From NCBI GenBank assembly GCA_016219965.1, contig JACRJM010000015.1:157857-221856 (forward strand): a DNA stretch of 64,000 bases, read 5' to 3'. The notes beneath the pieces were generated by a model that searched no databases, was not told where the DNA came from, and saw only the letters and a program-made list of their open reading frames with translations. Positions 39,506-61,096 of this stretch are shown here, piece by piece. Position 1 is the first letter of the stretch. The number at the start of each line of letters is the position of its first letter. Source of the DNA: Candidatus Schekmanbacteria bacterium. GTDB lineage: Bacteria; Schekmanbacteria; GWA2-38-11; J061. The translations under genes and the position numbers were made by a program.

Positions 39506-41002
39506 ATGGCAATAGGGGAAAATATAAAACTCACCGGTCCCTATGATTCAATGCGGGAATATCTCTCTGCTCTTGAAGCGAAGGGTTGGCTTCTTAAAAT
39601 AAAGGAAGTTGATCAGGACAAATATGAGGGGACTGCATTTGTTTACCGCATGCTCGACAAGATGGATACAAGCAGTACACCGGCAATCATGTTCGAGAAT
39701 ATAAAGCTTAACGGCAACATGATGGAAGGGCCGGTGTTTTCAAACATCTATTCCAGATGGGAATATGCGGCTATGTTTTTTGGCGTTGAAAATGTAACCG
39801 AAGATGAAAGTGACATGTACAGGGCGGTTAGGAATAGGCTCGTATCAAAGATTGAGAAGAACAACGGGCAGTGGCCCCGCATAAAACCTGTCGTGACAGA
39901 TAAAAAAGATGTCCCCTGCAAAGAAGTTATAATGAAAGGGGATGATGTTGATATTCTTAAATTTCCCTTCTTCAAGAACAATCCGGGCGACGTAAGCCAG
40001 TATATCAACACCGGAGCGGTATTCATGGAGGATCCTGAACTTGGTAGGAATGTTGGGACTTACCGTCTTCAGGTAAAGGGGAAAGATAAAATTGGAATGA
40101 ACACAGAGGCAGGCCAGCATGGATGGCAGTTCATAATGCGTGCAAAAAGAAGAGGAGAGCGTTCAATCCCTGCTGCAGTTGCCCTCGGCACAGACCCGAT
40201 AGTGTTTTCAGTAAGCTCCACAAAGGTTGCAGACCTTGGACAGGATGAGCTTGAATTTGCTGGCGGTCTTAAGGGGAAACCTGTGGAACTTGTAAAATGC
40301 GAGACCAGCAATATTCTCGTTCCTGCTGAAGCTGAGATAATAATCGAGGGAGATATAATCATAGAAGAGGAGGATGAAGGGCCTTATGGGGAGATGTATG
40401 GATACATGGGGCTTCAGCACAAAAACTTCTACATGAATATAAAAGCAGTAACCCACAAAAAGAAGCCGTGGATAATTAATGATTTCACGGGTGTTACTCA
40501 CAATACCAACATGATACCCTGGCAGATCAATACATATATACAATTGAAAAAAGCATTGCCCTATGTTGTAGATATGTATGGCATACGCGAAGCGATAGGA
40601 ATTACAATCCTGAGCATTGACAAGAGATTCCCTGGGCAGGGGATATCAGCAGGACAGGTGTTCCTCGGTATGAGTACGTCGAAGGTCGCAATCGTCGTGG
40701 ACAAAGACATTGACGTAACTAACTTGCCCCGCGTACTGAATGCCGTAGCGACAAGATGGCAGCCCCATCCTGCAAGCCTTATCATAAATCAGGCATTCAG
40801 CATGGGAGTTGACCCAAGCATGAAGCAGAGGGGAATTTCCAGCAAGATAGTGATAGACGCAACTAGGCAGTTGCCCTTAGAGGGCGGCCCTTCATCATGG
40901 CCTCCGGTGTCGCGGGTACTTCTCGAGGAGAAAGCCCCGGAGTCATTCAGCCTGGTTGACGGCAAATGGCAGGAGTACTGGAAAAACTGGGGGAAAAAAT
41001 AA
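39506..41002 (+). CDS. UbiD-family (prenylated-FMN) decarboxylase, cytosolic form
   Basis: A 498-residue UbiD-family protein. A GTG at 39497 could extend it by three codons, but AAGGAG at 39492 is correctly spaced for the ATG at 39506. The family catalytic triad seen in Fdc1 (R173, E277, E282) is matched by R187 in RNVGTYRLQ and by E291 and E296 in DEGPYGEMYGY, with the same 5-residue spacing. Other blocks include FAGGLKGKPVELVKCETSN and DFTGVTHNTNMIPW. UbiD enzymes reversibly decarboxylate aromatic or alpha,beta-unsaturated acids using prenylated FMN. No UbiX prenyltransferase gene lies in the window. It is about two-thirds identical by eye to the signal-peptide-bearing paralogue at 48584. 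Confidence 0.88.
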   Translation: MAIGENIKLTGPYDSMREYLSALEAKGWLLKIKEVDQDKYEGTAFVYRMLDKMDTSSTPAIMFENIKLNGNMMEGPVFSNIYSRWEYAAMFFGVENVTEDESDMYRAVRNRLVSKIEKNNGQWPRIKPVVTDKKDVPCKEVIMKGDDVDILKFPFFKNNPGDVSQYINTGAVFMEDPELGRNVGTYRLQVKGKDKIGMNTEAGQHGWQFIMRAKRRGERSIPAAVALGTDPIVFSVSSTKVADLGQDELEFAGGLKGKPVELVKCETSNILVPAEAEIIIEGDIIIEEEDEGPYGEMYGYMGLQHKNFYMNIKAVTHKKKPWIINDFTGVTHNTNMIPWQINTYIQLKKALPYVVDMYGIREAIGITILSIDKRFPGQGISAGQVFLGMSTSKVAIVVDKDIDVTNLPRVLNAVATRWQPHPASLIINQAFSMGVDPSMKQRGISSKIVIDATRQLPLEGGPSSWPPVSRVLLEEKAPESFSLVDGKWQEYWKNWGKK

Positions 41003-46329: not shown

Positions 46330-47505
46330 TTAGTCGAGCCTTGCAAGGTCGCTGTCGCCGTGATTGCCGCAATGTTTGTAATCATCCGTGTTGACCCGTA
46401 CTCCATAGGCTGCACGGATATCATGGAGCCCCTGCGCGAGACGTAGATAATATTCTAGAGAAGGCTGCTTCTGACCGTAAAAAGCAGAGCCCCTTGAAGG
46501 GCTCCAGACAAGGGCAAGCATCGCAACTCCATTTTTTGCAAGGAACTCGGCGCCATCTAAAGTTGAATTTAAAGCCTCATCCTCTGTTTTGAATCCATGA
46601 GGTTCAGCCATCTCGCAGCCGGCCACGATATTTGTACATACATTGCCGGGCCCGAAAAGCTCCACTGCGTCTATCATGCTTTTAACCCAATTGTCCCAAC
46701 CCACATATTTGTCTTTTCCGGGGCATATCCATGCAAATTTTTCCCTGTCCCATACCTCGATGTCCGGGCAGTAGGAAAGAATCCCTGTCTCATCATAAAG
46801 ACGTTTCAACTGTTTTTTTGTCATCGCACAGCAGACGAGCTGGCTTGGGAAGCGCTTACTGCTGAAATTTTCGCCTATTGCCTGAAGCACTTTTATATAA
46901 CGGTTAAGCTCGGAGTCAAATGGTTCTGCGCCTTCATAGTCGGCTCCGCCGGTAAGCGTGATTATTGAGAACCTGCCCGGTTCCTTAAGGGCTTCTGCAA
47001 CGGTTTCGCTTATATCCTTTGGGTGAAGCTCCATTCCCTGCTCCATCTTTAACCTGTTCTTTGCAATGACATTGATTGAGCAGAACTTGCATTGATAGCC
47101 GCCCTTCCAATAGTGGCAGAACCTGTAAGGCCAGATGTCGAGGCGCTGGGGTCTGAACATTCCGATTTTTTCCATCGGCGTTCCAAGGCTTGTTTTTTTT
47201 CCATAAAAAGCAGGCTTTGGAGAAAAAGTTATTTCTTCCACATATTCGCCGTGATAAAAAATGCCAAGACTCCCGTTGTGGAAATCAACAGTGTATGGGT
47301 CCTTCTTGTTTGTCTTTTTTGCCGGAGCAGTGACAACTGATGTCCCGTCCCTTAATATCATTGGCCCCGGAAACTCTCCATATTCTTTTTCTACGGCATC
47401 AGAATAAATTGTCCCTCTCCGGTAGAGGTCGAGTTTGAGAATTATGAAACGGGGGAAATTCGGATATTTTTGCACTGCCTCCTGATAGGTCAGGTCGTTA
47501 TTCAT
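46330..47505 (-). CDS. Radical SAM-like protein with C-x8-C-x2-C motif, copy 1
   Basis: A 391-residue protein about 60 percent identical by eye to the one at 59927. The cluster motif is CHYWKGGYQCKFC, with cysteines C130, C139 and C142. The first spacing is eight residues instead of three, and the last two cysteines have the usual x2 spacing. ITLTGGADYEGAEPFDSELN occupies the place of the SAM-binding GGE-type motif. EVWDREKFAWICPG and TNIVAGCEMAEPHGF fit later barrel strands. The N-terminal 95 residues precede the core and are not recognisable. The product is unknown. It lies between the flavin reductase gene (27 bases upstream) and the split-barrel gene, probably one operon. No Shine-Dalgarno sequence is visible. 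Confidence 0.8.
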   Translation of the reverse strand: MNNDLTYQEAVQKYPNFPRFIILKLDLYRRGTIYSDAVEKEYGEFPGPMILRDGTSVVTAPAKKTNKKDPYTVDFHNGSLGIFYHGEYVEEITFSPKPAFYGKKTSLGTPMEKIGMFRPQRLDIWPYRFCHYWKGGYQCKFCSINVIAKNRLKMEQGMELHPKDISETVAEALKEPGRFSIITLTGGADYEGAEPFDSELNRYIKVLQAIGENFSSKRFPSQLVCCAMTKKQLKRLYDETGILSYCPDIEVWDREKFAWICPGKDKYVGWDNWVKSMIDAVELFGPGNVCTNIVAGCEMAEPHGFKTEDEALNSTLDGAEFLAKNGVAMLALVWSPSRGSAFYGQKQPSLEYYLRLAQGLHDIRAAYGVRVNTDDYKHCGNHGDSDLARLD

Positions 47506-47532: not shown

Positions 47533-48354
47533 TCATGAGTCCTGTTCGAAACGGTCAACCACGTCTTTTGGGGCGTATTCTTCAACGAGTTTCATATATC
47601 TCTCGTGTGTTACAATTTCAGCACCCTCTTTTTTTAAGATGTCTTCTGTCATTTCCACAACCATTGAGCGGATTGCTGAAGGTATATTCATCAACTCTTT
47701 AAGAGCATTATCCTCCCACTGCATACATGTCTCGATTTTTTCAGAGGTTATCTCCTTTGGAGGCGGTTTCAAGACATGCTTTTCAATCTTGTCTATCCTG
47801 CCGTAATAGAAGTATTTTCTCTTTTCATCTCCCAGCCCGATGGGAAGGTTCAGGCTTCTGAAACGCTCTTCTCTTCCAAGCTCTATGAGTTCTTCATCCA
47901 TAACTATTGCGAGTACATCTGCGATAATATGACCCTGTGTATTATCAAGCTCGTACTGCTGGCTGGCTCTGCATTCTAAAATCTGTCCGCACTCCTTGAT
48001 GCTTGGCGGGGTTACTTTTTTTGAAGGAATAGTTGTGAATTTTGTGAAGTCCAGTTCATTGACCCCTTCAGGATAGAAGCGGCATGTTTCCATTACATCA
48101 TCGAGATAATCTGCAGATGGAAAATTCACGACGAACTCCCCTGTTTCAGCGATGTTTTTGTAGGTGTGGGTGAACTTCCTCATTCCCACGATTATCCTGG
48201 GATTTTGGTTCATTATGTCATACTGCATGAAGAACGAATATGGCGCTGCGTTTACAACTCCCTGCTTGTTTACTGTTGTGATAATGGTGACCATCTTTGG
48301 GAAAACTACGACATCAGCATACCAGAATGGTTTTATAGGGACACACTTTTTCAT
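47533..48354 (-). CDS. Flavin reductase-like protein with PCP_red-like C-terminus
   Basis: A 273-residue protein. Residues 1-190 form a flavin reductase-like FMN-binding split barrel (FPKMVTIITTVNKQGVVNAA, PYSFFMQY, then GEFVVNFPSADYLDDV and CGQILECRASQQYEL). Residues 212-260 read MQWEDNALKELMNIPSAIRS, VVEMTEDILKKEGAEIVT, a pattern like the small PCP_red domain found in subunits of light-independent protochlorophyllide reductase and in other redox proteins. That domain may bind the partner or the substrate. The first gene of a minus-strand operon, it starts 24 bases downstream of a strong sigma-70 promoter and is divergent from the exported UbiD gene. Confidence 0.75.
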   Translation of the reverse strand: MKKCVPIKPFWYADVVVFPKMVTIITTVNKQGVVNAAPYSFFMQYDIMNQNPRIIVGMRKFTHTYKNIAETGEFVVNFPSADYLDDVMETCRFYPEGVNELDFTKFTTIPSKKVTPPSIKECGQILECRASQQYELDNTQGHIIADVLAIVMDEELIELGREERFRSLNLPIGLGDEKRKYFYYGRIDKIEKHVLKPPPKEITSEKIETCMQWEDNALKELMNIPSAIRSMVVEMTEDILKKEGAEIVTHERYMKLVEEYAPKDVVDRFEQDS

Positions 48355-48471: not shown

Positions 48472-48500
48472 TTGACATCAGGATAGCTCCTAAATATTCT
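48472..48500 (+). promoter_or_regulatory. Sigma-70 promoter for the exported UbiD gene
   Basis: TTGACA (48472-48477), a 17-base spacer and TATTCT (48495-48500) give a good promoter. The leader to the ATG at 48584 is about 77 bases. Confidence 0.6.
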
Positions 48501-48583: not shown

Positions 48584-50146
48584 ATGAGAAAAGGAAAGGT
48601 TTTCTTGTCAGCAGTATTCATCTTTCTGTCAATCTATCTATCTTTCCCTGCTTTTGGTGCTGATAAGAATGTAAAGCTTACCGGTCCGTACGATACGATG
48701 AGGGATTATCTTGCCGCAATTGAGGCGCGCGGCAGGCTTTTGAGGATAAATCAAATCGATCAGGATAAGTATGAGGGGACTGCATTTGTTTACAGAATGC
48801 TTGACAAGATGGGAACAGACAAAGCTCCTGCAGTTGTATTTGAAAAGGTGAAAATAAACGGACAGGTGATGGATGGTCCTGTTTTCGCGAATATCTATCC
48901 AGGATGGGATACAACAGCCATGATTTATGGTTTGAGTAAGATAACTGATGACCAGAGCGAAATGTACAGGGCGGTAAGGAACAAGCTTGTAAGCATGGTT
49001 GAAGAGAACGGAGGTCAATGGAAAAAGATAAAGCCAGTCACAATTGATTCCAAAAATGCGCCCTGTAAAGAGGTTGTATTGAAAGGCGATGACATTGATA
49101 TAACAAAATTCCCATGGTTTAAGAACAATCCGGGCGATGCAGGGCAGTATATTAACACCCCGGCCGTATTCATGGAAGATCCGATGTTTAACAGGAATGT
49201 TGGCACCTACCGCATCCAGGTCAAAGGGAAAAATAAGATAGGCGTAAATCCCGAGAAGGGACAGCATGGTTATATATTCATCAAAGCGGCTGAGAAAAGG
49301 GGTGAAAAATCAATCCCTGCCGCCATAGCGCTTGGAGTTGACCCTATAATATTTTCAATGGCATGTACCAAAGTAGCAGCCCTTGGCGAGGATGAACTCG
49401 ATTTTGCAGGAGGTCTTAAGGGAAAGCCGGTTGAGCTTGTAAAGTGCGAGACAAGCAATATCATGGTTCCGGCGCAGGCTGAGATGATAATAGAAGGCGA
49501 CATACCTGTTGAAACCGAGGAGGAAGGACCTTATGCGGAGATGTACGGTTATCAGGGCGAGAAGCATCAAAGCTATACCATGAATATTAAAGCCATAACC
49601 TACCGGAAGAACCCTATCATAGTTAATGATTTTACAGGTGTTACCCATCCGACCAACATGATACCTTGGTCTATAGGAACATACATTAACCTTAAAAAAA
49701 TCCTGCCAAACCTTGTAGACCTCTATGATCCCAGAGAAGCAGTAGGTATATCTGTTTTAAGTATTGAAAAAAGATTTCCCGGTCAGGGGATAAGCGCAGG
49801 CGAAGTGCTTTTGGGAGCGTCCACTGCCAAAGTAGCAATCGTTGTTGACAAGGACGTTGATGTCACTGATATGACCCAGGTGCTTCATGCTGTTGCAACA
49901 AGATGGCAGCCATATCCGGGGAGCCTGATAATAAACCATGATTTTCGTCCAAGCGTTGACCCGAGCACAAAGAAGAACAAGCTGAGCAGTAAGATAGTAA
50001 TTGATGCGACGAGACAGTTTCCTGAAGAAGGCGGGCCGGATTCCTTTGCACCTCTCTCAAGAAACATCCTCCAGCAGATGGCCCCTGATGCCTTTGGTAT
50101 CGTTGACAAGAACTGGCAGGAATACTGGAAGAACTGGAAGAAATAA
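48584..50146 (+). CDS. UbiD-family decarboxylase with N-terminal signal peptide
   Basis: A 520-residue UbiD paralogue. The first 26 residues (MRKGKVFLSAVFIFLSIYLS, then FPAFGA) form a clear Sec signal peptide with an AFG/GA cleavage region. The remainder aligns with the cytosolic copy at 39506 without gaps from its residue 5 onward. The catalytic triad is intact: R210 in RNVGTYRIQ, E314 and E319 in EEGPYAEMYGY. An AGGAG ribosome-binding site precedes the ATG. A mature protein outside the cytoplasm would need prenylated FMN to be loaded before or after export. Sec export would require an apo-protein; no twin-arginine motif is present. It is upstream of an MFS transporter gene by 17 bases and so is likely co-transcribed. 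Confidence 0.85.
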   Translation: MRKGKVFLSAVFIFLSIYLSFPAFGADKNVKLTGPYDTMRDYLAAIEARGRLLRINQIDQDKYEGTAFVYRMLDKMGTDKAPAVVFEKVKINGQVMDGPVFANIYPGWDTTAMIYGLSKITDDQSEMYRAVRNKLVSMVEENGGQWKKIKPVTIDSKNAPCKEVVLKGDDIDITKFPWFKNNPGDAGQYINTPAVFMEDPMFNRNVGTYRIQVKGKNKIGVNPEKGQHGYIFIKAAEKRGEKSIPAAIALGVDPIIFSMACTKVAALGEDELDFAGGLKGKPVELVKCETSNIMVPAQAEMIIEGDIPVETEEEGPYAEMYGYQGEKHQSYTMNIKAITYRKNPIIVNDFTGVTHPTNMIPWSIGTYINLKKILPNLVDLYDPREAVGISVLSIEKRFPGQGISAGEVLLGASTAKVAIVVDKDVDVTDMTQVLHAVATRWQPYPGSLIINHDFRPSVDPSTKKNKLSSKIVIDATRQFPEEGGPDSFAPLSRNILQQMAPDAFGIVDKNWQEYWKNWKK

Positions 50147-50163: not shown

Positions 50164-51492
50164 ATGAGCACGACCACGGGAATGCAGCTATCGGGTAAAA
50201 GATTTGCAGGCATTGATATCCCGGTAGGGCTGACACAGGCGAATTATTTTAATCTTTATTTTGCAAGCTGGATTATGGGTTGTCTAATGACAATACCTAC
50301 AGTCATCCAGCCTGCTTTCCTTAAAGAAGTAGTAAAAATCCCGGAAGGTCTTACCGGTTCAATCAATGCAGGCTTGCAGAACATGGGGCAGATTGCCACA
50401 CTTTTGTTGATTGGCCTGGTTGGTATTGCCTCAGACAGGTATGGACGAAAGATATTAATTGTTGCCGGCTTTGCCTTCTGCATTGTCTTTTATCCTGTAT
50501 TCGGCCACAGCTCCGATATTGCCGCTGCTCTTGGATTAGAAAGTTCTGAGTGGCATTTGATAATCGTTTATCTTTCCCGCTTTATGCTCGGCATAGGTCT
50601 TGTCCTTAGCCATCCGCAGTTCGTGACCCTGGTTGCTGACTATACAACTGCTGAGGGAAGAGGAAAGGGGATGGCACTCCATGCAATAATGATGTCTCTT
50701 GGCACTCTTTGTGTGTATGGCTTGTTTACTCAAATGGCTGCCGTGATAGGGATAATCGGAGCTTTCTATGCCGGAGGAGCACTGGGACTTGCCGGAATCC
50801 TTGTTGCCTTGTCAGGATTGGTTGACAGGATTGGAAAGAGCCATGCGGTAAAAACGGATATCAGGGAAATCTATCGACTTGTTTTAAGAAGTTTCCCTCT
50901 GAGAGCAGCTTACATTACGGGATTCGTAACGCGTGCCAATATTTCTCTTACATCAACTTTAATTATCGTCTGGATGGTGAGTATGGCAGGCAAATTCGGC
51001 TACACTCCTTTGCAGGCTACTGCAAGGGCCGGAGTGATAATGATGGTTGGGAATGTTTTCAGCATATTAAGTTTTTATATAATAGGTATCCTTCTTGACC
51101 GCGTAGGACGGCTTCCGGTTCTTATCAGCGCACTTATCCTTACCGGTGCAGGTTATTTTCTCATAGCTACCATAGATGATCCTTTTTCTAACCTTATGTT
51201 TCTATATGTGAGCTTATTGGGGTTTGCAAAAAACGGGGCTATTGTTGCCGCCAATACACTTGCTTCTGACGTAACTCCGCGCCACTGTCTAGGCAGTGCT
51301 CTGGGTGTTTTGAATACAGTAGGAACACTCGGGATAATTTTTTTTCTTCAGGTATGCGGTTATCTTTTTGACAGCATTTCTCATCAGTCGCCATTTGTTT
51401 TCAAAGGTGCCGTTGATGCGGCTTGCGGGATCTGGATATTTATTGCGAGGAAAAAAATTATTAGTATGAAAAAAGAAGGTCAGACTCTATAA
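50164..51492 (+). CDS. MFS transporter, copy 1
   Basis: A 442-residue protein with about twelve membrane segments, paralogous to the one at 58487. The family loop between helices 2 and 3 is visible as GIASDRYGRKILIV. The sequence FAGIDIP, QPAFLKEVVKIPEGLTGSIN and SGLQNMGQI-like (AGLQNMGQI) blocks are shared with the paralogue. The start at 50164 has AAAGG directly adjacent, which is close for a Shine-Dalgarno sequence. The next ATG is at 50182, but the paralogue supports the longer form. A permease for an organic acid or aromatic compound is plausible. It follows the exported UbiD gene by 17 bases. Confidence 0.85.
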   Translation: MSTTTGMQLSGKRFAGIDIPVGLTQANYFNLYFASWIMGCLMTIPTVIQPAFLKEVVKIPEGLTGSINAGLQNMGQIATLLLIGLVGIASDRYGRKILIVAGFAFCIVFYPVFGHSSDIAAALGLESSEWHLIIVYLSRFMLGIGLVLSHPQFVTLVADYTTAEGRGKGMALHAIMMSLGTLCVYGLFTQMAAVIGIIGAFYAGGALGLAGILVALSGLVDRIGKSHAVKTDIREIYRLVLRSFPLRAAYITGFVTRANISLTSTLIIVWMVSMAGKFGYTPLQATARAGVIMMVGNVFSILSFYIIGILLDRVGRLPVLISALILTGAGYFLIATIDDPFSNLMFLYVSLLGFAKNGAIVAANTLASDVTPRHCLGSALGVLNTVGTLGIIFFLQVCGYLFDSISHQSPFVFKGAVDAACGIWIFIARKKIISMKKEGQTL

Positions 51493-51530
51493 TATTTCTT
51501 AGAAGTAAATATTTTAAAGTGATGATCATT

Positions 51531-51968
51531 ATGCGTGGGAAAAAAGGATTTACGCTTATCGAACTGATGATAGTGGTTGCAATCATTGGTATTCTTGCAG
51601 CAATAGCCATTCCTAATTTTTTAAAATTTCAGGCAAAGGCAAAACAGGCTGAAGCAAAAAGCAACCTTTCCGCGATTTATGTGGCTCAACTTTCTTATTT
51701 TGGCGAGCATGACATTTATTGCACATTATTCAGTCAGCTTGGATGGGTTTATGAAGGTCCCAGCAAGTATGAATATTTTTTTTCAGCCACTGAATTTGCC
51801 GGTGATGTTCCTGGTCTTGAAATGCCCGCAGGAGTCGCTGTTGGAACAGATACTTTCACTGCGGGAGCAACAGGCAACATAGATGCAGATACGACCGTCT
51901 ATGATATGTGGACGATTAATGACCGTAAAGAACTCTTAAATGTTGTTAATGACGTAATAAATGATTAG
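51531..51968 (+). CDS. Type IV pilin-like protein
   Basis: A 145-residue prepilin. The leader MRGKKG is followed by FTLIELMIVVAIIGILAAIA, with the peptidase cleavage site before F and the essential glutamate at position 5 of the mature form. The globular part is short and rich in glycine and aspartate, ending NVVNDVIND. The frame also allows starts at 51519 (GTG) and 51522 (ATG), and no strong ribosome-binding site decides between them. The gene stands alone with no other pilus genes, which is common for minor or specialised pilins. It lies 26 bases downstream of the MFS gene. Confidence 0.85.
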   Translation: MRGKKGFTLIELMIVVAIIGILAAIAIPNFLKFQAKAKQAEAKSNLSAIYVAQLSYFGEHDIYCTLFSQLGWVYEGPSKYEYFFSATEFAGDVPGLEMPAGVAVGTDTFTAGATGNIDADTTVYDMWTINDRKELLNVVNDVIND

Positions 51969-52298: not shown

Positions 52299-54959
52299 AT
52301 GGCTTATCGTTTTTCACAAAAAGCACCATGCTATTTTCTCGTAATAATCTTTGTCTTTGCACTGAGCATCTTTATTCATAAGCCTGCTTATTCCGCTGAA
52401 CAGGGAATTGTGAAGGGAATAGTTACTGATAAGAGCAGCAAAGCGCCTCTGCCCGGTATAGCTATAACAGTGGAAGGTACGAACATTTTGGAATTTACCA
52501 ATGAAAAGGGAGAATATCAGATACGACTTGCTCCTGGGACTTATAAGTTAAGGGCTGAACTTCTTGGATATAATCCTGCTGAGGCTTTGGGAGTCATAGT
52601 CGTAGACGGGGAAACTAATCAGGTCAACTTCACCTTGGCTCAGGCAGGTGTCGTTGAAGGAGAGGAAACTGTAGTCACAGGAGAAAGGCAGGATGTCCCT
52701 CTTTCAAAGACGACGGCATCGGTAGCTATCGTTGGAGCAAAAGACATAGAAAAACTCGGTGCAGTTACAAATGCTTCAGATTTGATAAAAAATACACCTG
52801 GTGTTCAGGTTGAAAGCGGCGGATCGGAATTTGCCAAGACAATCAAGATAAGGGGGAGAACCATTGCTCCTCCCAGCGTTAATTCAGCAGGCATACTTCT
52901 CCTTGTTGACGGTGTTCCTGCAAACGACCCTGCTTCAGGGTATGCAAACATGTATCAGATACCTTCTGAAAATATAGAGAAGATAGAAGTCCTGAAGGGC
53001 GCTTCATCTGCGCAATATGGCGGACAGGCGTCAGCAGGAGTAATAAACATCATAACAAAAAAAGGACAAAGGATACCTGTCACAAAAGCGTCTATGGAGT
53101 TTGGCACATACCAGAGAAGGAGCAAAGCTGAAGACGAGCTTTATGAGAATTATACTTTTTACCATAGCTGGGGGAATAAGTATTTTGATTATGCTTTTAG
53201 CGGCTCGTATTCTCATCTCTCAGGTATAACATCAGCAGAAAAATCCGTGGTTGCTACTGCACAGCGTTTATATGGAGAGAAACACCCGGGAACAAGGCTC
53301 CCGGATGGCAGCAAGAAATTTTCTGACCGTATAGAAACTCCTTTCATGACTGGAGCTGACCTTAATGAACTGATGGATGTGGGTGACCATGACAAGGGAG
53401 AAAAGTATTCTGCAGAGTTAAACCTCGGGATCAATCTTTTCAAGGGGAATGCGCTTAGAATAAGCCCGTCATATTTAAACACTAACTTTTTCCTGGGTTT
53501 TTCTCCCGGGAGTAAAGCTCTTGAAAGCCCGACAGATACATTCCTTCAATTCTTTCTTAATGTCATTAACAAGAGAGAGGCTTTCAATGTCTCGGATAAG
53601 TGGGAAATAACGCCAAACCTCACTTATAATTTCAGGATGGGATTGACAAAAAACACCGGAGGTGCAGTTTTCATAACCGTAGGTGATTTTGTTAAATATA
53701 ATAAAGAGGCGAAAGCATCAGGGAAAAAAGACCATTATGTGACGTTAAACGGGGTAAGTCCTTTCAATCCGCTCCCAGGGATTACCGTTGACAGAGCTCT
53801 GACGTTAGCCAATGATATTTCTTATAAATTTGATATATTTGATGGCAATGTTCTTACGGTAGGGCAGGAATATCAGTGGGCAAAGAGCCAGACTCCGCCT
53901 GACCTGATTTTGTATAACAAACCTACTGTTAAACATAATATCCATTCACTTTTCTTACAGGATCTTTTGACTGTTAAGGATTTCAGCTTATCTGTAGGAG
54001 GAAGATGGGACCAGGCAACTACATTTATAGAGAACTTTGATGATGAGTTTTCTCCCAGGTTTGGAATAAATTATTCCATAAACCCAGGGACAAGCCTTCG
54101 TTTTTCAGTAGGCCGGGCAAGAAGGTTTGAAGACTTCGCGCGGCAGAATGGACTTGGACAGTCAAACGGAAGGCTTTGGGGTAACCCGACAATCGGTCCT
54201 GAGGTAAACTGGACATATGAATTGGGGTTCAGATTTGCCACTAAATACATAAGCGGAGACATTGCATATTTTTATGATGATTATGCAGGGCTTGAAATCC
54301 CAGTGCCCCTTTCAGCCATCGGATATGGGAAGGCAAATGGAGATCCCAGGGTCATTAAATATAGCAGAGAAGTCCTCGGTGTTTCGAAGGCTCAGCTTTC
54401 GAAATTTAACATTAACACAACCAACCCAAGGGCAGGGACATTCATTAACGGTCCTGATGCGGTATTCCAGGGATTTGATGTGAGCGTTGATGTGAAACCG
54501 ATAGAGAACTGGGATATTTCGGTTTCTTATCTTTTCCAGAGGGCTGTGTCCGGCAATAACAATCCTTTTGATTTCGGTCAGGGAAAAGCGCAGGCAATCT
54601 GGGTCGCAAGTGACGGCAAGTCGCTGGGACCGAAATTTCAGGATGAGATGAGAATAGCTTATATGCCGACGCATATCTTCAAAGTTTCTTCAGATTATAC
54701 CATGCCTTTCGGACTGAGGTTAGATATCTCAGGCAGGTATAAAAGCACTACGGATTTTTTCTCAGGCTCATATGCAACCGGAATATTCCGTCAGCCTGAG
54801 CACTGGATTTGGGATTACAAAATGACACAGCCGTTGTTTAACGGAAAATTGAATGTCTCCTTCTCGATTGATAATGTCTTCAGCAAGCTTTACTACGAGC
54901 AGGGGGGTATTCCGTCAAATGTCGCAAGGTATGTGATAGGATTTGCAGCTAATTTCTAA
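52299..54959 (+). CDS. TonB-dependent outer-membrane receptor with N-terminal carboxypeptidase-regulatory-like domain
   Basis: An 886-residue outer-membrane receptor. The signal peptide is residues 1-32 (ends AYSA). Residues 35-115 form a carboxypeptidase-D regulatory-like domain (GIVKGIVTDKSSKAPLPGIA, then TYKLRAELLGYNP). GEETVVTGERQ near residue 127 is a TonB-box region, followed by the plug domain (VSIVG-like VAIVGAKDIEKLG, IKIRGRTIAP, VDGVPANDPASG and IEVLKGASSAQYGGQASAGV). The remaining 600 residues form a beta-barrel ending in YVIGFAANF, with the usual terminal aromatic residue. The AAGGAGGA ribosome-binding site is strong. The imported substrate is unknown. It is 29 bases upstream of the HemF-like gene, which suggests a link. 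Confidence 0.92.
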   Translation: MAYRFSQKAPCYFLVIIFVFALSIFIHKPAYSAEQGIVKGIVTDKSSKAPLPGIAITVEGTNILEFTNEKGEYQIRLAPGTYKLRAELLGYNPAEALGVIVVDGETNQVNFTLAQAGVVEGEETVVTGERQDVPLSKTTASVAIVGAKDIEKLGAVTNASDLIKNTPGVQVESGGSEFAKTIKIRGRTIAPPSVNSAGILLLVDGVPANDPASGYANMYQIPSENIEKIEVLKGASSAQYGGQASAGVINIITKKGQRIPVTKASMEFGTYQRRSKAEDELYENYTFYHSWGNKYFDYAFSGSYSHLSGITSAEKSVVATAQRLYGEKHPGTRLPDGSKKFSDRIETPFMTGADLNELMDVGDHDKGEKYSAELNLGINLFKGNALRISPSYLNTNFFLGFSPGSKALESPTDTFLQFFLNVINKREAFNVSDKWEITPNLTYNFRMGLTKNTGGAVFITVGDFVKYNKEAKASGKKDHYVTLNGVSPFNPLPGITVDRALTLANDISYKFDIFDGNVLTVGQEYQWAKSQTPPDLILYNKPTVKHNIHSLFLQDLLTVKDFSLSVGGRWDQATTFIENFDDEFSPRFGINYSINPGTSLRFSVGRARRFEDFARQNGLGQSNGRLWGNPTIGPEVNWTYELGFRFATKYISGDIAYFYDDYAGLEIPVPLSAIGYGKANGDPRVIKYSREVLGVSKAQLSKFNINTTNPRAGTFINGPDAVFQGFDVSVDVKPIENWDISVSYLFQRAVSGNNNPFDFGQGKAQAIWVASDGKSLGPKFQDEMRIAYMPTHIFKVSSDYTMPFGLRLDISGRYKSTTDFFSGSYATGIFRQPEHWIWDYKMTQPLFNGKLNVSFSIDNVFSKLYYEQGGIPSNVARYVIGFAANF

Positions 54960-54988
54960 ATACGTTTGAAATAGTGAAGGAGGTTGTC

Positions 54989-55753
54989 ATGTCGCATTTA
55001 AAAGAGGTTGATGCATATTTTGAGGATCTGAAGAACAGGACGCTTTCTGCCTTCGGCGAGATTGATAAAGCTGGCAAAGTTGATTACAGAAAATGGGATA
55101 CGCCGCTGGGATTGATGGAGGTGCGTGCTTTTAAGGGTGATGTGTTCGAGAAGGCCGGGGTCTCATATTCTGCATTGAAGGTCAAGCATCCAAAAACAGG
55201 TATAGCTGCGGATGTAAGGGTTTTTGAGATACTGACTTATATGACGAATCCAAAGGTACCTACAGCGGCGATAAGCCTCCGTTACAGAGTAAATGGCGGA
55301 GAGATGTTCATGGGGTGTTGCGATCTCTCGCCTGCGGTTATCATAGATGATGACCTTAAGGAGTTTGAAGATGAAATGAAAAAACTTTCCAAAAAGTACG
55401 GCAAGGATTTTGCGAAAATGCAGGAGAGGTTATGCTGGCTGTTTACCTCGCAGTATTCCAAAAAGATGGTCCTTGGAGGAAAAGGAATCGCCTATGATAT
55501 TGAGGCAGGTGGGTTTGACTTTTTTAAGGAAAGCGGAGATGTCTTCCTCGCCACATCGCTTGAGATAATAAAAAGACGCAAGGATGAGCCTTACACTGTT
55601 GCTGAAAAGGACAAACAACTTTACGGACGCGGTGAATGGGTTCAGTTTAACCTCATGGAGGACAAGGGGTTTGTACTTGGGGTGCAGGTAGGGGTGCCGC
55701 CGGAGGCTATGAATTTCCAGACTTTACCACCGTTAGCTAAGTTCTGCGAGTAA
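54989..55753 (+). CDS. Divergent HemF-like (coproporphyrinogen III oxidase family) protein
   Basis: A 254-residue protein. The GTG at 54974 is possible, but AAGGAGG at 54978 fits the ATG at 54989. The family is recognisable: GDVFEKAGVSYSAL matches the GGVFEQAGVNFS block, TNPKVPTAAISLRYR matches NPxVPTSHANVRF, CCDLSPA matches GGFDLTP, and YGRGEWVQFNL followed by LGVQVGVPPEAMN matches the RRGRYVEFNL end. However, the conserved histidine of PTSHAN is alanine here, the neighbouring asparagine is serine, and the later conserved histidines are not visible, although the D and terminal R/G blocks remain. It is shorter than HemF (about 300 residues). It may be a non-canonical or inactive tetrapyrrole-binding relative rather than a working coproporphyrinogen oxidase. 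Confidence 0.8.
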   Translation: MSHLKEVDAYFEDLKNRTLSAFGEIDKAGKVDYRKWDTPLGLMEVRAFKGDVFEKAGVSYSALKVKHPKTGIAADVRVFEILTYMTNPKVPTAAISLRYRVNGGEMFMGCCDLSPAVIIDDDLKEFEDEMKKLSKKYGKDFAKMQERLCWLFTSQYSKKMVLGGKGIAYDIEAGGFDFFKESGDVFLATSLEIIKRRKDEPYTVAEKDKQLYGRGEWVQFNLMEDKGFVLGVQVGVPPEAMNFQTLPPLAKFCE

Positions 55754-58486: not shown

Positions 58487-59821
58487 TCATCTTGCGGGCA
58501 TTGATTCCTGTTTAGGTGTAAAAGGGATCCCTTTCCTTACTTTCAAAACCCAGACTCCGCAGGCAGTATTGACTATGCCTTTCATCAGGAAAGGGCTCCA
58601 GTAGCCGAACTCATCAAGCATGATTCCTCCTGCCTGAAGGAAAACAAGAGTGCCGATTGATTGAAGGGCATTCATCCCTCCCATGATGCTTCCAAGAAGA
58701 TGCTTTGGCGAAGCATCAGCGGTAAGCGCGCTTGCCCCAGTTGTTGCGGCGGAAAAACCTATTCCTATCAATGACAGATAAAAATACATTGGCAGCGAAA
58801 ATGGATTTTCAGTAGCCGCGATAAGAAAATAACCAAGTGATGTTGAAGCAATGGAAAGGAGGATGACAGGAGTTCTTCCCCACTTGTCGAGTAATATGCC
58901 GATTGGAGGCCATGCAAAAAGCGTTACTACTGACATGATGAGAAGCATTATCCCTCCGCTTGCCGTAGCCTTCACGGGGCTCATTCCCATTTTATCTGCC
59001 GCATAAACCATCCATACAATGATGTATGTTGCGATTATTAGTATGTCTACCCTTAAGATTACGGTCACCACATAGCTTACTTTAAGAGGGATGCTCTTTG
59101 TGACTATCTTGTATAATTCTTTCATGCTTATCTTAGACGCCTTTTCTTTCGGCATGCGGTCAACGAGCCCGAAAACGGAAATAAGAATTCCAATTAAACA
59201 TGCCGCACCTGCAATATAAAAAAGGCTCATAAGCCCTGCACTTTTTGCAACCTGTGTCAGTCCTCCGAAAACTATCATTGAACCTATGCTTATGGTGATC
59301 CCCTGATAAGCCATCGCCTTGCCCCTGTCAGGAGGGTAGGAATAATCGGCGCACATGGTGCCGATCTGCGGGAAGGTGAGTATTATGCCGATTCCGATGA
59401 GGAACCTTATGACATAAGTTGCAACAATCTGTCCTCCCAAGCCTTCAACTCCCATGAGAAGGCAGATATCCTTTGTGTAGCCGAACAATACATAGAAGAT
59501 CCCGCTTATCAGAAATCCGGCGATTACAAGCCTGCGCCGTCCAACCTTGTCTGAAAGTATTCCTGCCGCGCCTGTAAAAAGAAGCCATGCGATCTGTCCC
59601 ATGTTCTGAAGCCCGGAGTTGATGGAGCCGGACTGCTCTTTTGGAATATTTATTACGTCTTTTAAAAATGCAGGCTGTACCACAGCAGGAAGGGTTATAA
59701 GGCATGCGACTAGCAAGGATGCGAAGTATAAATTATAGTAGTGATAAGTCTTAAGCTCAGGGGGGATTACAATTCCGGCAAATGTTCTCGCTGGATTTTG
59801 TCCATCATTCAATTTTGCCAT
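58487..59821 (-). CDS. MFS transporter, copy 2
   Basis: A 444-residue paralogue of the transporter at 50164, with about twelve membrane segments. GILSDKVGRRRLVIAGF is the family loop 2-3 motif. Shared blocks include FAGIVIPPEL, YYNLYFASLL, VVQPAFLKDVINIPKEQSG and SGLQNMGQI. A second GRTPVILLS lies in the mirror loop. The substrate is unknown. It is divergent from the second radical SAM-like gene, with a 105-base shared promoter region. Confidence 0.87.
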   Translation of the reverse strand: MAKLNDGQNPARTFAGIVIPPELKTYHYYNLYFASLLVACLITLPAVVQPAFLKDVINIPKEQSGSINSGLQNMGQIAWLLFTGAAGILSDKVGRRRLVIAGFLISGIFYVLFGYTKDICLLMGVEGLGGQIVATYVIRFLIGIGIILTFPQIGTMCADYSYPPDRGKAMAYQGITISIGSMIVFGGLTQVAKSAGLMSLFYIAGAACLIGILISVFGLVDRMPKEKASKISMKELYKIVTKSIPLKVSYVVTVILRVDILIIATYIIVWMVYAADKMGMSPVKATASGGIMLLIMSVVTLFAWPPIGILLDKWGRTPVILLSIASTSLGYFLIAATENPFSLPMYFYLSLIGIGFSAATTGASALTADASPKHLLGSIMGGMNALQSIGTLVFLQAGGIMLDEFGYWSPFLMKGIVNTACGVWVLKVRKGIPFTPKQESMPAR

Positions 59822-59830
59822 AAGTTCATG

Positions 59831-59859
59831 TTAGTACGGAGAGTCGTATTATATGTCAA
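59831..59859 (-). promoter_or_regulatory. Possible sigma-70 promoter, minus strand, for MFS copy 2
   Basis: On the minus strand TTGACA (59859-59854), a 17-base spacer and TACTAA (59836-59831). The -35 box is perfect but the -10 box is weak. It would leave almost no leader before the start at 59821. Confidence 0.35.
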
Positions 59860-59891
59860 GATGTTTTCTGATTTGTTTTAGACTCATTTTC

Positions 59892-59920
59892 TTGACATGG
59901 CTTCCTGAAATGAATATTTT
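59892..59920 (+). promoter_or_regulatory. Sigma-70 promoter giving a leaderless transcript
   Basis: TTGACA (59892-59897), a 17-base spacer and TATTTT (59915-59920) put the expected start of transcription within a base or so of the ATG at 59927. No Shine-Dalgarno sequence precedes that ATG, which fits a leaderless message. Confidence 0.55.
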
Positions 59921-59926
59921 CGAAAT

Positions 59927-61096
59927 ATGGATAAAGATTTAACTTACAGACAAGCGGTAGAGAAATATCCTGATGTGCCAAAGTTCACAATCCTGAAGAT
60001 TGACCTTTACAGGAGAGGACTTGTCTATACCGATGCATTGAAAGAAAAATACGGGCAATATCCGGGCCCCACAGTGTTGAGAGACGGGACTTCTGTTCTC
60101 ACTGCAGCGGGCGAGTGCATGAATGACCATTACACGGTCGACCTTTTCGAAGACAGACTTGGAATCTTTTACAATGGCGAGTTTATAGAAGAGGCGGATT
60201 TTTGCGCCAAGCCGTCATATGTTGGGAAAAAGACGAGCCAGGGAACTCCCATGGAAAGTGTCGGGATGTTCAGGCCGCAGGTTATAAATATATGGGCATA
60301 CAGGTACTGCCACTTCTGGGAAGGAGGCAATGCCTGCAAATTCTGTTCCATCAACACCTTTCTCAAAAAAAGACTCTCCGAGAGGGAGATAGCCCTTGAT
60401 CCGCAGGATATAAAGGAGATAGTCGCAGAAGCTATAAGCGAGCCGGGAAGATTCTCTACAATAAATATAACAGGTGGAGCTGACCCGGAGGGAGAGGAAC
60501 CATTCGATTCAGAGCTCAACCGCTATATTAAAATCCTTCAGGCAGTTGGAGAAAATTTCTCTTCGAGAAGGTTTCCAAGCCAGCTTTTGGCTTGCGCCTA
60601 TAACAAAAAGCAGGTGAAACGGCTTTATGATGAGACAGGTGTCCTTACATATTGCGCTGATATGGAAGTGTGGGACAGGGAGCGTTTCAAGTGGGTCTGT
60701 CCGGCAAAGGAAAAATATGTAGGATGGGATAACTGGGTGAGGAACCTTTTTGATGCTGTCGAGATATTCGGTCCGGGAAATGTGGCAACAAACATCGTGG
60801 CAGGATGCGAGATGGTAAAACCCTATGGTTTTGAGACTGTTGATGAGGCTTTAAAGTCGAATCTTGAAGGTTGCGAGTATCTTGCAAAGCACGGAGTATC
60901 AATGATGGGGCTTGTTTTCAGACCTGTTAAGAATTCCGTGTTCCACAAGGCAAATCAGCCCACGTTAGAGTATTATATCCGTCTTGCACGCGGAATGCAT
61001 GATATCCGCGCAGCCTATGGACTTAGCGATAACTTCGATGATTACAAGCATTGCGGCAATCATCCTGACAGTGATTTAAGCAGGGTTGACTTCTGA
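59927..61096 (+). CDS. Radical SAM-like protein with C-x8-C-x2-C motif, copy 2
   Basis: A 389-residue paralogue of the protein at 46330. The motif is CHFWEGGNACKFC with cysteines C128, C137 and C140, so the eight-residue first spacing is conserved across the two copies. The GGE-like block is NITGGADPEGEEPFDSELN, and the ends align (MHDIRAAYGLSDNFDDYKHC). Conserved stretches at the N-terminus (DLTYRQAVEKYP, LYRRGLVYTDAL, YPGPTVLRDGTSVLTA) are outside the core radical SAM fold and would define the family. The chemistry is unknown. It is convergent with the amidohydrolase gene. Confidence 0.82.
   Translation: MDKDLTYRQAVEKYPDVPKFTILKIDLYRRGLVYTDALKEKYGQYPGPTVLRDGTSVLTAAGECMNDHYTVDLFEDRLGIFYNGEFIEEADFCAKPSYVGKKTSQGTPMESVGMFRPQVINIWAYRYCHFWEGGNACKFCSINTFLKKRLSEREIALDPQDIKEIVAEAISEPGRFSTINITGGADPEGEEPFDSELNRYIKILQAVGENFSSRRFPSQLLACAYNKKQVKRLYDETGVLTYCADMEVWDRERFKWVCPAKEKYVGWDNWVRNLFDAVEIFGPGNVATNIVAGCEMVKPYGFETVDEALKSNLEGCEYLAKHGVSMMGLVFRPVKNSVFHKANQPTLEYYIRLARGMHDIRAAYGLSDNFDDYKHCGNHPDSDLSRVDF

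Follow-up and report, generated by a model that had tools for sequence, protein, structure and literature searches.

Enzymes that use prenylated FMN (prFMN) have been studied as cytosolic systems together with UbiX. Can a UbiD-family decarboxylase then work outside the cytoplasm? The question is raised by a gene in the 64,000-nucleotide stretch of Candidatus Schekmanbacteria DNA analysed here (hereafter the window), whose product begins with a signal peptide (Table 1). An earlier note on this gene, made without database searches, had claimed that it encodes a UbiD with a Sec signal peptide and a retained R-E-E catalytic triad, that export would be a new setting for such an enzyme, and that its cofactor route would be unclear. 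We favour, with a probability of roughly 0.62, the reading that this is the gene of a true UbiD-family decarboxylase located outside the cytoplasm, with export, cleavage, prFMN loading and activity all being inferred.

Table 1. Positions of the locus features in the window; the arrow marks a predicted cleavage site
Feature	Positions	Strand	Evidence
UbiD-family decarboxylase gene with N-terminal signal peptide (window UbiD)	48584..50146	+	ORF, Shine-Dalgarno, Pfam, TIGR00148, AlphaFold2 model
Signal peptide of Sec type (residues 1-25, MRKGKVFLSAVFIFLSIYLSFPAFG), predicted to be cut at AFG↓ADK	48584..48658	+	Sequence, scorer, conservation, low pLDDT
R210, catalytic Arg (Fdc1 R173)	49211..49213	+	NVGTYR motif, invariant in A1, A2, A3
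EGPYAE motif, E314 and E319 (Fdc1 E277, E282)	49523..49540	+	Glu residues invariant in A1, A2, A3
Sigma-70-like promoter match (TTGACA-17-TATTCT) ahead of the UbiD gene	48472..48500	+	Consensus scan, 10/12
Second UbiD (498 aa) lacking a signal peptide, a paralogue with 67% identity to window UbiD	39506..41002	+	Pfam, alignment
Radical SAM protein	46330..47505	-	NF045502
Flavin-reductase-like protein (PF01613), encoded divergently to the UbiD gene	47533..48354	-	Pfam match
MFS transporter, its gene 17 bases beyond the end of the UbiD gene	50164..51492	+	Orthologues adjoin signal-peptide UbiDs in G060, G689
TonB-dependent receptor with signal peptide	52299..54959	+	Profile matches, signal scorer
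HemF-like protein (Coprogen_oxidas, PF01218)	54974..55753	+	94 bits, cut-off 31.8

The window protein is a UbiD-family member with an intact triad

The gene is a complete, intact open reading frame of 520 codons for amino acids, which starts with ATG and has AGGAG upstream. Its product matches all three Pfam models of the family above their cut-offs (PF01977 at 201.8 bits, UbiD_C at 68.7 and UbiD_N at 27.2) and passes TIGR00148, where it scores 272 bits and the cut-off is 244.85. Membership in the named UbiD groups was tested with the NCBIfam equivalog or exception cut-offs, and the protein missed those for VdcC (251 versus 650 bits), E. coli UbiD (157 versus 788), menaquinone decarboxylase (190 versus 496) and phenylphosphate carboxylase (125 versus 565). 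By every sequence test it is a UbiD-family protein that lies outside the named equivalogs; binding of prFMN and decarboxylation are inferred.

The claim of a retained triad held: R210, E314 and E319 are all present, with the arginine placed within N205-x4-R210. The spacing from arginine to the first glutamate (104) and between the glutamates (5) is the same as in Aspergillus niger Fdc1, where R173, E277 and E282 are the catalytic residues (PMC5818171). An AlphaFold2 model, with 14 homologues as input, has a mean pLDDT of 82, with residues 1-23 falling below 50. The nearest characterized enzymes, being the best matches in both sequence and PDB fold searches, are the Sedimentibacter vanillic acid decarboxylase VdcC (PDB 7ae4) and E. 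coli UbiD (PDB 5m1d). They share with the window protein the three-domain fold, the R-E-E network (E-R-D in E. coli) and the prFMN-site motifs, but differ from it in that identity is only about 27%, its scores lie far below their equivalog cut-offs, and it carries an N-terminal signal peptide. The promoter listed in Table 1 is a consensus match only. We also considered a Gly-to-Ala change in the EGPYAE motif as an active-site change specific to signal-peptide copies, and dropped it because the signal-peptide UbiDs of G060 and G689 have Gly, while some UbiDs without a signal peptide have Ala.

Sec-type and Tat-type signals among relatives of the window protein

Residues 1-25 of the window protein, which are followed by ADK, combine a positively charged n-region (MRKGK) and a hydrophobic h-region with the site A-F-G↓A, in which the residues at -3 and -1 are small, and meet the criteria for Sec export and signal peptidase I. 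On a simple purpose-written scorer, used in place of SignalP, the protein scores 3.40. Elsewhere in the window, clearly exported proteins score about 3.4-4.5 (the TonB-dependent receptor 3.94), and soluble cytosolic proteins score 2.25 at most or not at all; some membrane proteins, however, also reach 3.1-3.5. Five of 62 UbiD ORFs score between 3.13 and 3.48, with the next best at 1.34; a sixth signal-peptide UbiD, L146, is outside those five. Most other UbiDs examined have neither a Sec-type nor a Tat signal. Since the residues preceding the h-region (RKGKVFL) lack a twin arginine and fail the Tat criterion, Sec is the expected route despite the presence of TatC in the genome.

According to the earlier note, a true start further downstream, or a membrane anchor holding a cytosolic enzyme, would refute its claim. 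A start at M39 (position 48698) is unlikely, because no Shine-Dalgarno sequence precedes it and the protein would then lack the TGPYD segment, which is conserved in relatives without a signal peptide. Moreover, the orthologue from G002, a genome of another family in the same order, has no alternative ATG, GTG or TTG in its first 60 codons. The charge distribution speaks against an anchor that keeps the enzyme in the cytosol: in five homologues the charge, counting the amino group, is +3 to +5 ahead of the hydrophobic stretch and -1 to +1 behind it. The predicted topology is therefore N-in/C-out, which would place the enzyme outside the cytoplasm whether the segment is cleaved or remains as an anchor. 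A chance hydrophobic N-terminus was rejected, because six homologues repeat it with the same cleavage pattern.

The earlier note had suggested looking for UbiD homologues with signal peptides. A search of the genome contigs with the single protein found no relative, while a search with an alignment found nine. Signal-peptide copies are present in G002, G060 and G689. The G002 orthologue is 69% identical to the window protein and begins MRRQRIILSALFLFVSVFSNTVFG↓AEK. G060 (MAG CALJBY) has three copies, which begin MKRKAQRNYLILLTALFFLFSYSLSCS↓AEK and MNKKGIVSAVSTFILVLSFCVPSFS↓AEK, the third being partial, and G689, of the same class as G060, has one Sec-type copy (L146), which begins MKTRRAFLFSAIIFIVSLFLFSLSFG↓AEK. 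The signal peptide is common to L006, L044/L079, L059/L078, L067/L080 and L146, and every copy fits the pattern [A/V/S]-x-[G/S]↓A-[D/E]-K, with small residues at -3 and -1. Outside the source class it is known from these two genomes of one other class. The triad and domains are intact in all complete copies despite about 31-43% divergence. Within the window, the paralogue without a signal peptide starts MAIGENIKLTGPYD and aligns to the predicted mature start of the window protein, ADKNVKLTGPYD.

The claim of a UbiD with a Sec signal peptide held, on the domains, the scorer and the conservation. Comparative evidence marks the signal peptide as genuine: it recurs in more than one family and in one other class, is a clean addition relative to the paralogue and follows a secure start; cleavage and localization are inferred. 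In a tree of 36 rows the signal-peptide copies fall into three lineages close to the subfamily's base, which entails three changes. The basal forks are weakly supported, and several gains of the signal peptide cannot be distinguished on this tree from several losses. As a side observation, G050 and G034 have very many UbiD homologues, with at least 25 and 13 matches, respectively, in one search.

Unseen by the earlier note were textbook Tat signals on two further subfamily members, from G689 (L150:11033-12694) and G271 (L077). Their twin-arginine signals, SRRNFLTTGAVGVAAVTAGC, both contain SRRNFL, and the G689 protein passes the curated TAT model TIGR01409 (17.6 versus 16.7 bits). Like the window protein they belong to the 28-row subfamily of the UbiD family and are predicted to be exported; unlike it they have a twin-arginine instead of a Sec signal, and they are only 42-43% identical to it. 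The G689 protein retains the R-E-E residues, with EGPFGE and the N-x4-R motif. In the 36-row tree the pair is a separate branch with full support, and no MFS gene was found beside the G689 member. On the same contig as the latter, a molybdenum-hydroxylase-like large subunit (L150 2898-5036) has a Tat-like signal, LTRRTFLK. Tat signals would let the holo-enzyme cross the membrane, and UbiD export would be wider than one gene, as inferred from sequence alone. Overall, UbiD export is likely to be real and to be reached with two kinds of signal, localization again being inferred.

Gene neighbourhood and cofactor supply

The window UbiD gene is followed by an MFS transporter gene whose orthologues adjoin signal-peptide UbiDs in G060 (62% identity) and G689 (61%), the latter two being 71% identical to each other. 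The other MFS paralogues compared are at most 46% identical to the window protein. The pairing of a signal-peptide UbiD with an orthologous MFS gene is thus seen in three lineages (G000, G060 and G689), with the orientation of the UbiD gene relative to the MFS gene varying between them. The partial third copy of G060 also adjoins an MFS gene of this family; the signal-peptide UbiD of G002 has no MFS neighbour. Receptors about 60% identical to the TonB-dependent receptor of the window adjoin MFS genes in G000:C6 and G001. Past the MFS gene, the run of window genes goes on with one for a type IV prepilin-like protein (51519-51968), then those of the TonB-dependent receptor and the HemF-like protein. 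The interval 58487-61096 is a duplicated module: it has another MFS gene and another radical SAM gene, 43% and 65% identical to those at 50164 and 46330, respectively. Near the partial third UbiD of G060 (L080 219-4021) are genes for DUF1329, YCF48-like and two small cupredoxin-like proteins with apparent signal peptides.

The cofactor is the main difficulty for an exported UbiD. UbiX produces prFMNH2, which needs oxidative maturation, and activation of prFMN enzymes is an open question for which the LpdD chaperone (PMC10865409) and the PhdC maturase (PMC13040415) have been described. To our knowledge no pathway that would bring prFMN into the periplasm has been identified. An exported UbiX was not found in the window genome: its UbiX starts MQKKKLIVALTGASG, an ordinary cytosolic-type N-terminus without a signal peptide. 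An active Sec-exported holo-enzyme would need an extra step for prFMN, the mechanism of which is unexplained. The claim that the cofactor route is unclear hence holds for the window copy, which has no twin arginine and whose UbiX has no signal peptide.

The divergently encoded flavin-reductase-like protein is a possible prFMN maturase, though by fold class only. It shares this broad fold class with PhdC, which is HpaC-like (PMC13040415). It differs in that its best PDB matches are FMN-binding proteins other than PhdC, and it lacks a signal peptide; the catalytic Glu of PhdC remains unmapped in it. Its G060 orthologue is 75% identical and is encoded beside an MFS gene.

Proposed pathway, competing readings and the substrate lead

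In the reading that we prefer, the Sec machinery would export the window protein by means of its signal peptide, and signal peptidase I would cut after AFG, leaving a mature enzyme of about the same extent as the cytosolic paralogue. In the periplasm it would fold, take up prFMN and (de)carboxylate an unsaturated or aromatic acid. The TonB-dependent receptor could bring this acid through the outer membrane, and the MFS carrier would take the acid or its product through the inner membrane. The MFS neighbour itself is shown by computation; post-export loading, the way in which the carrier transports and the aromatic or tetrapyrrole nature of the substrate are inferred.

Four alternatives merit consideration. 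The one that survives best, though unlikely, is an uncleaved signal anchor that tethers the protein to the inner membrane with its catalytic domain in the periplasm. Its hydrophobic stretch of about 17-20 residues is long for a cleaved signal, and the charge distribution fits N-in/C-out. Against it, the conserved cleavage pattern ends the segment in all signal-peptide copies, and other exported proteins of the window have a similar site, such as AYS↓AEQ in the TonB-dependent receptor; it is nonetheless not excluded. It also appears improbable that the exported protein has given up prFMN-dependent decarboxylation and turned to ligand binding or another role. This reading draws on the facts that prFMN comes from a cytosolic UbiX and that Sec passes unfolded chains. 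However, no complete signal-peptide copy has lost any of the catalytic residues across the divergence noted above, suggesting selection for catalysis, and the Tat-type relatives show that UbiD export need not mean loss of the cofactor.

A third alternative is that the signal is a degenerate Tat signal, by which Tat would export the folded holo-enzyme. In L146, TRRAFL precedes a comparable h-region, SRRNFL occurs in two subfamily members, and TatC is encoded in the window genome. We nevertheless doubt this reading, given that the window protein has no twin arginine, that the h-regions are strongly hydrophobic, and that the G060 copies lack RR, with no TatC found in the 1.9-Mb MAG of G060. Weakest of all is a cytoplasmic enzyme with a reverse (N-out) anchor or with export too inefficient to matter: it would answer the cofactor problem simply, and the close paralogue is cytosolic, but the charge bias is opposite to that of an N-out anchor, three lineages have kept the signal peptide and the same genome already has that separate cytosolic paralogue, making this reading very unlikely.

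The claim that an exported UbiD is a new setting met no counter-example: the open-access literature searched contained no report of a UbiD with a signal peptide, in the periplasm or exported by Tat, with subscription papers and UniProt lying outside the scope of this search. In one study signal peptides are reported on esterases and not on UbiD (PMC8269228). As far as this literature shows, the setting is new. If the extracytoplasmic reading is true, either prFMN or the holo-enzyme crosses the inner membrane, and periplasmic (de)carboxylation becomes a possible step in the uptake of aromatic or tetrapyrrole acids. The occurrence of Sec and Tat versions within one subfamily offers a built-in comparison for cofactor loading. 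A bolder version, which we regard as no more than possible, is that of a UbiD subfamily outside the cytoplasm, of which Tat exports some members folded and Sec others unfolded, with prFMN delivered to or loaded in the periplasm by an unidentified route, and with a role in loci for the uptake of tetrapyrrole or other aromatic acids in bacteria rich in bilin-reductase-like genes.

A tetrapyrrole substrate is a tentative lead and not a result, resting on weak inference. Bilin reductases share the HemF fold, and bilin-reductase-like sequences have been noted in Ca. Schekmanbacteria (PMC10151467). PF05996 has 8, 13, 3, 3 and 10 matches at E ≤0.01 in G000, G001, G002, G003 and G060, respectively, most of them over the cut-off, and matches in one of 14 control genomes. 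G061 and G062, whose UbiDs of this subfamily lack a signal peptide, have no matches. The comparison set includes only four genomes of the phylum of G000. In G060 a bilin-reductase-like gene scoring 41 bits (cut-off 31) lies next to one signal-peptide UbiD, and a second, at 48 bits, adjoins an MFS gene of the window family. Co-export of these proteins with UbiD was rejected: none of the 28 examined has a convincing signal peptide, and they look cytosolic. Apart from UbiD, the bilin-reductase-like expansion (loci L116-L145) is itself an observation, at 3-13 per genome in probably non-photosynthetic genomes. In G001 a HemF-like ORF of uncertain start follows a signal-less UbiD (L039 1476-2477), and its N-terminus has a hydrophobic stretch that resembles a signal peptide.
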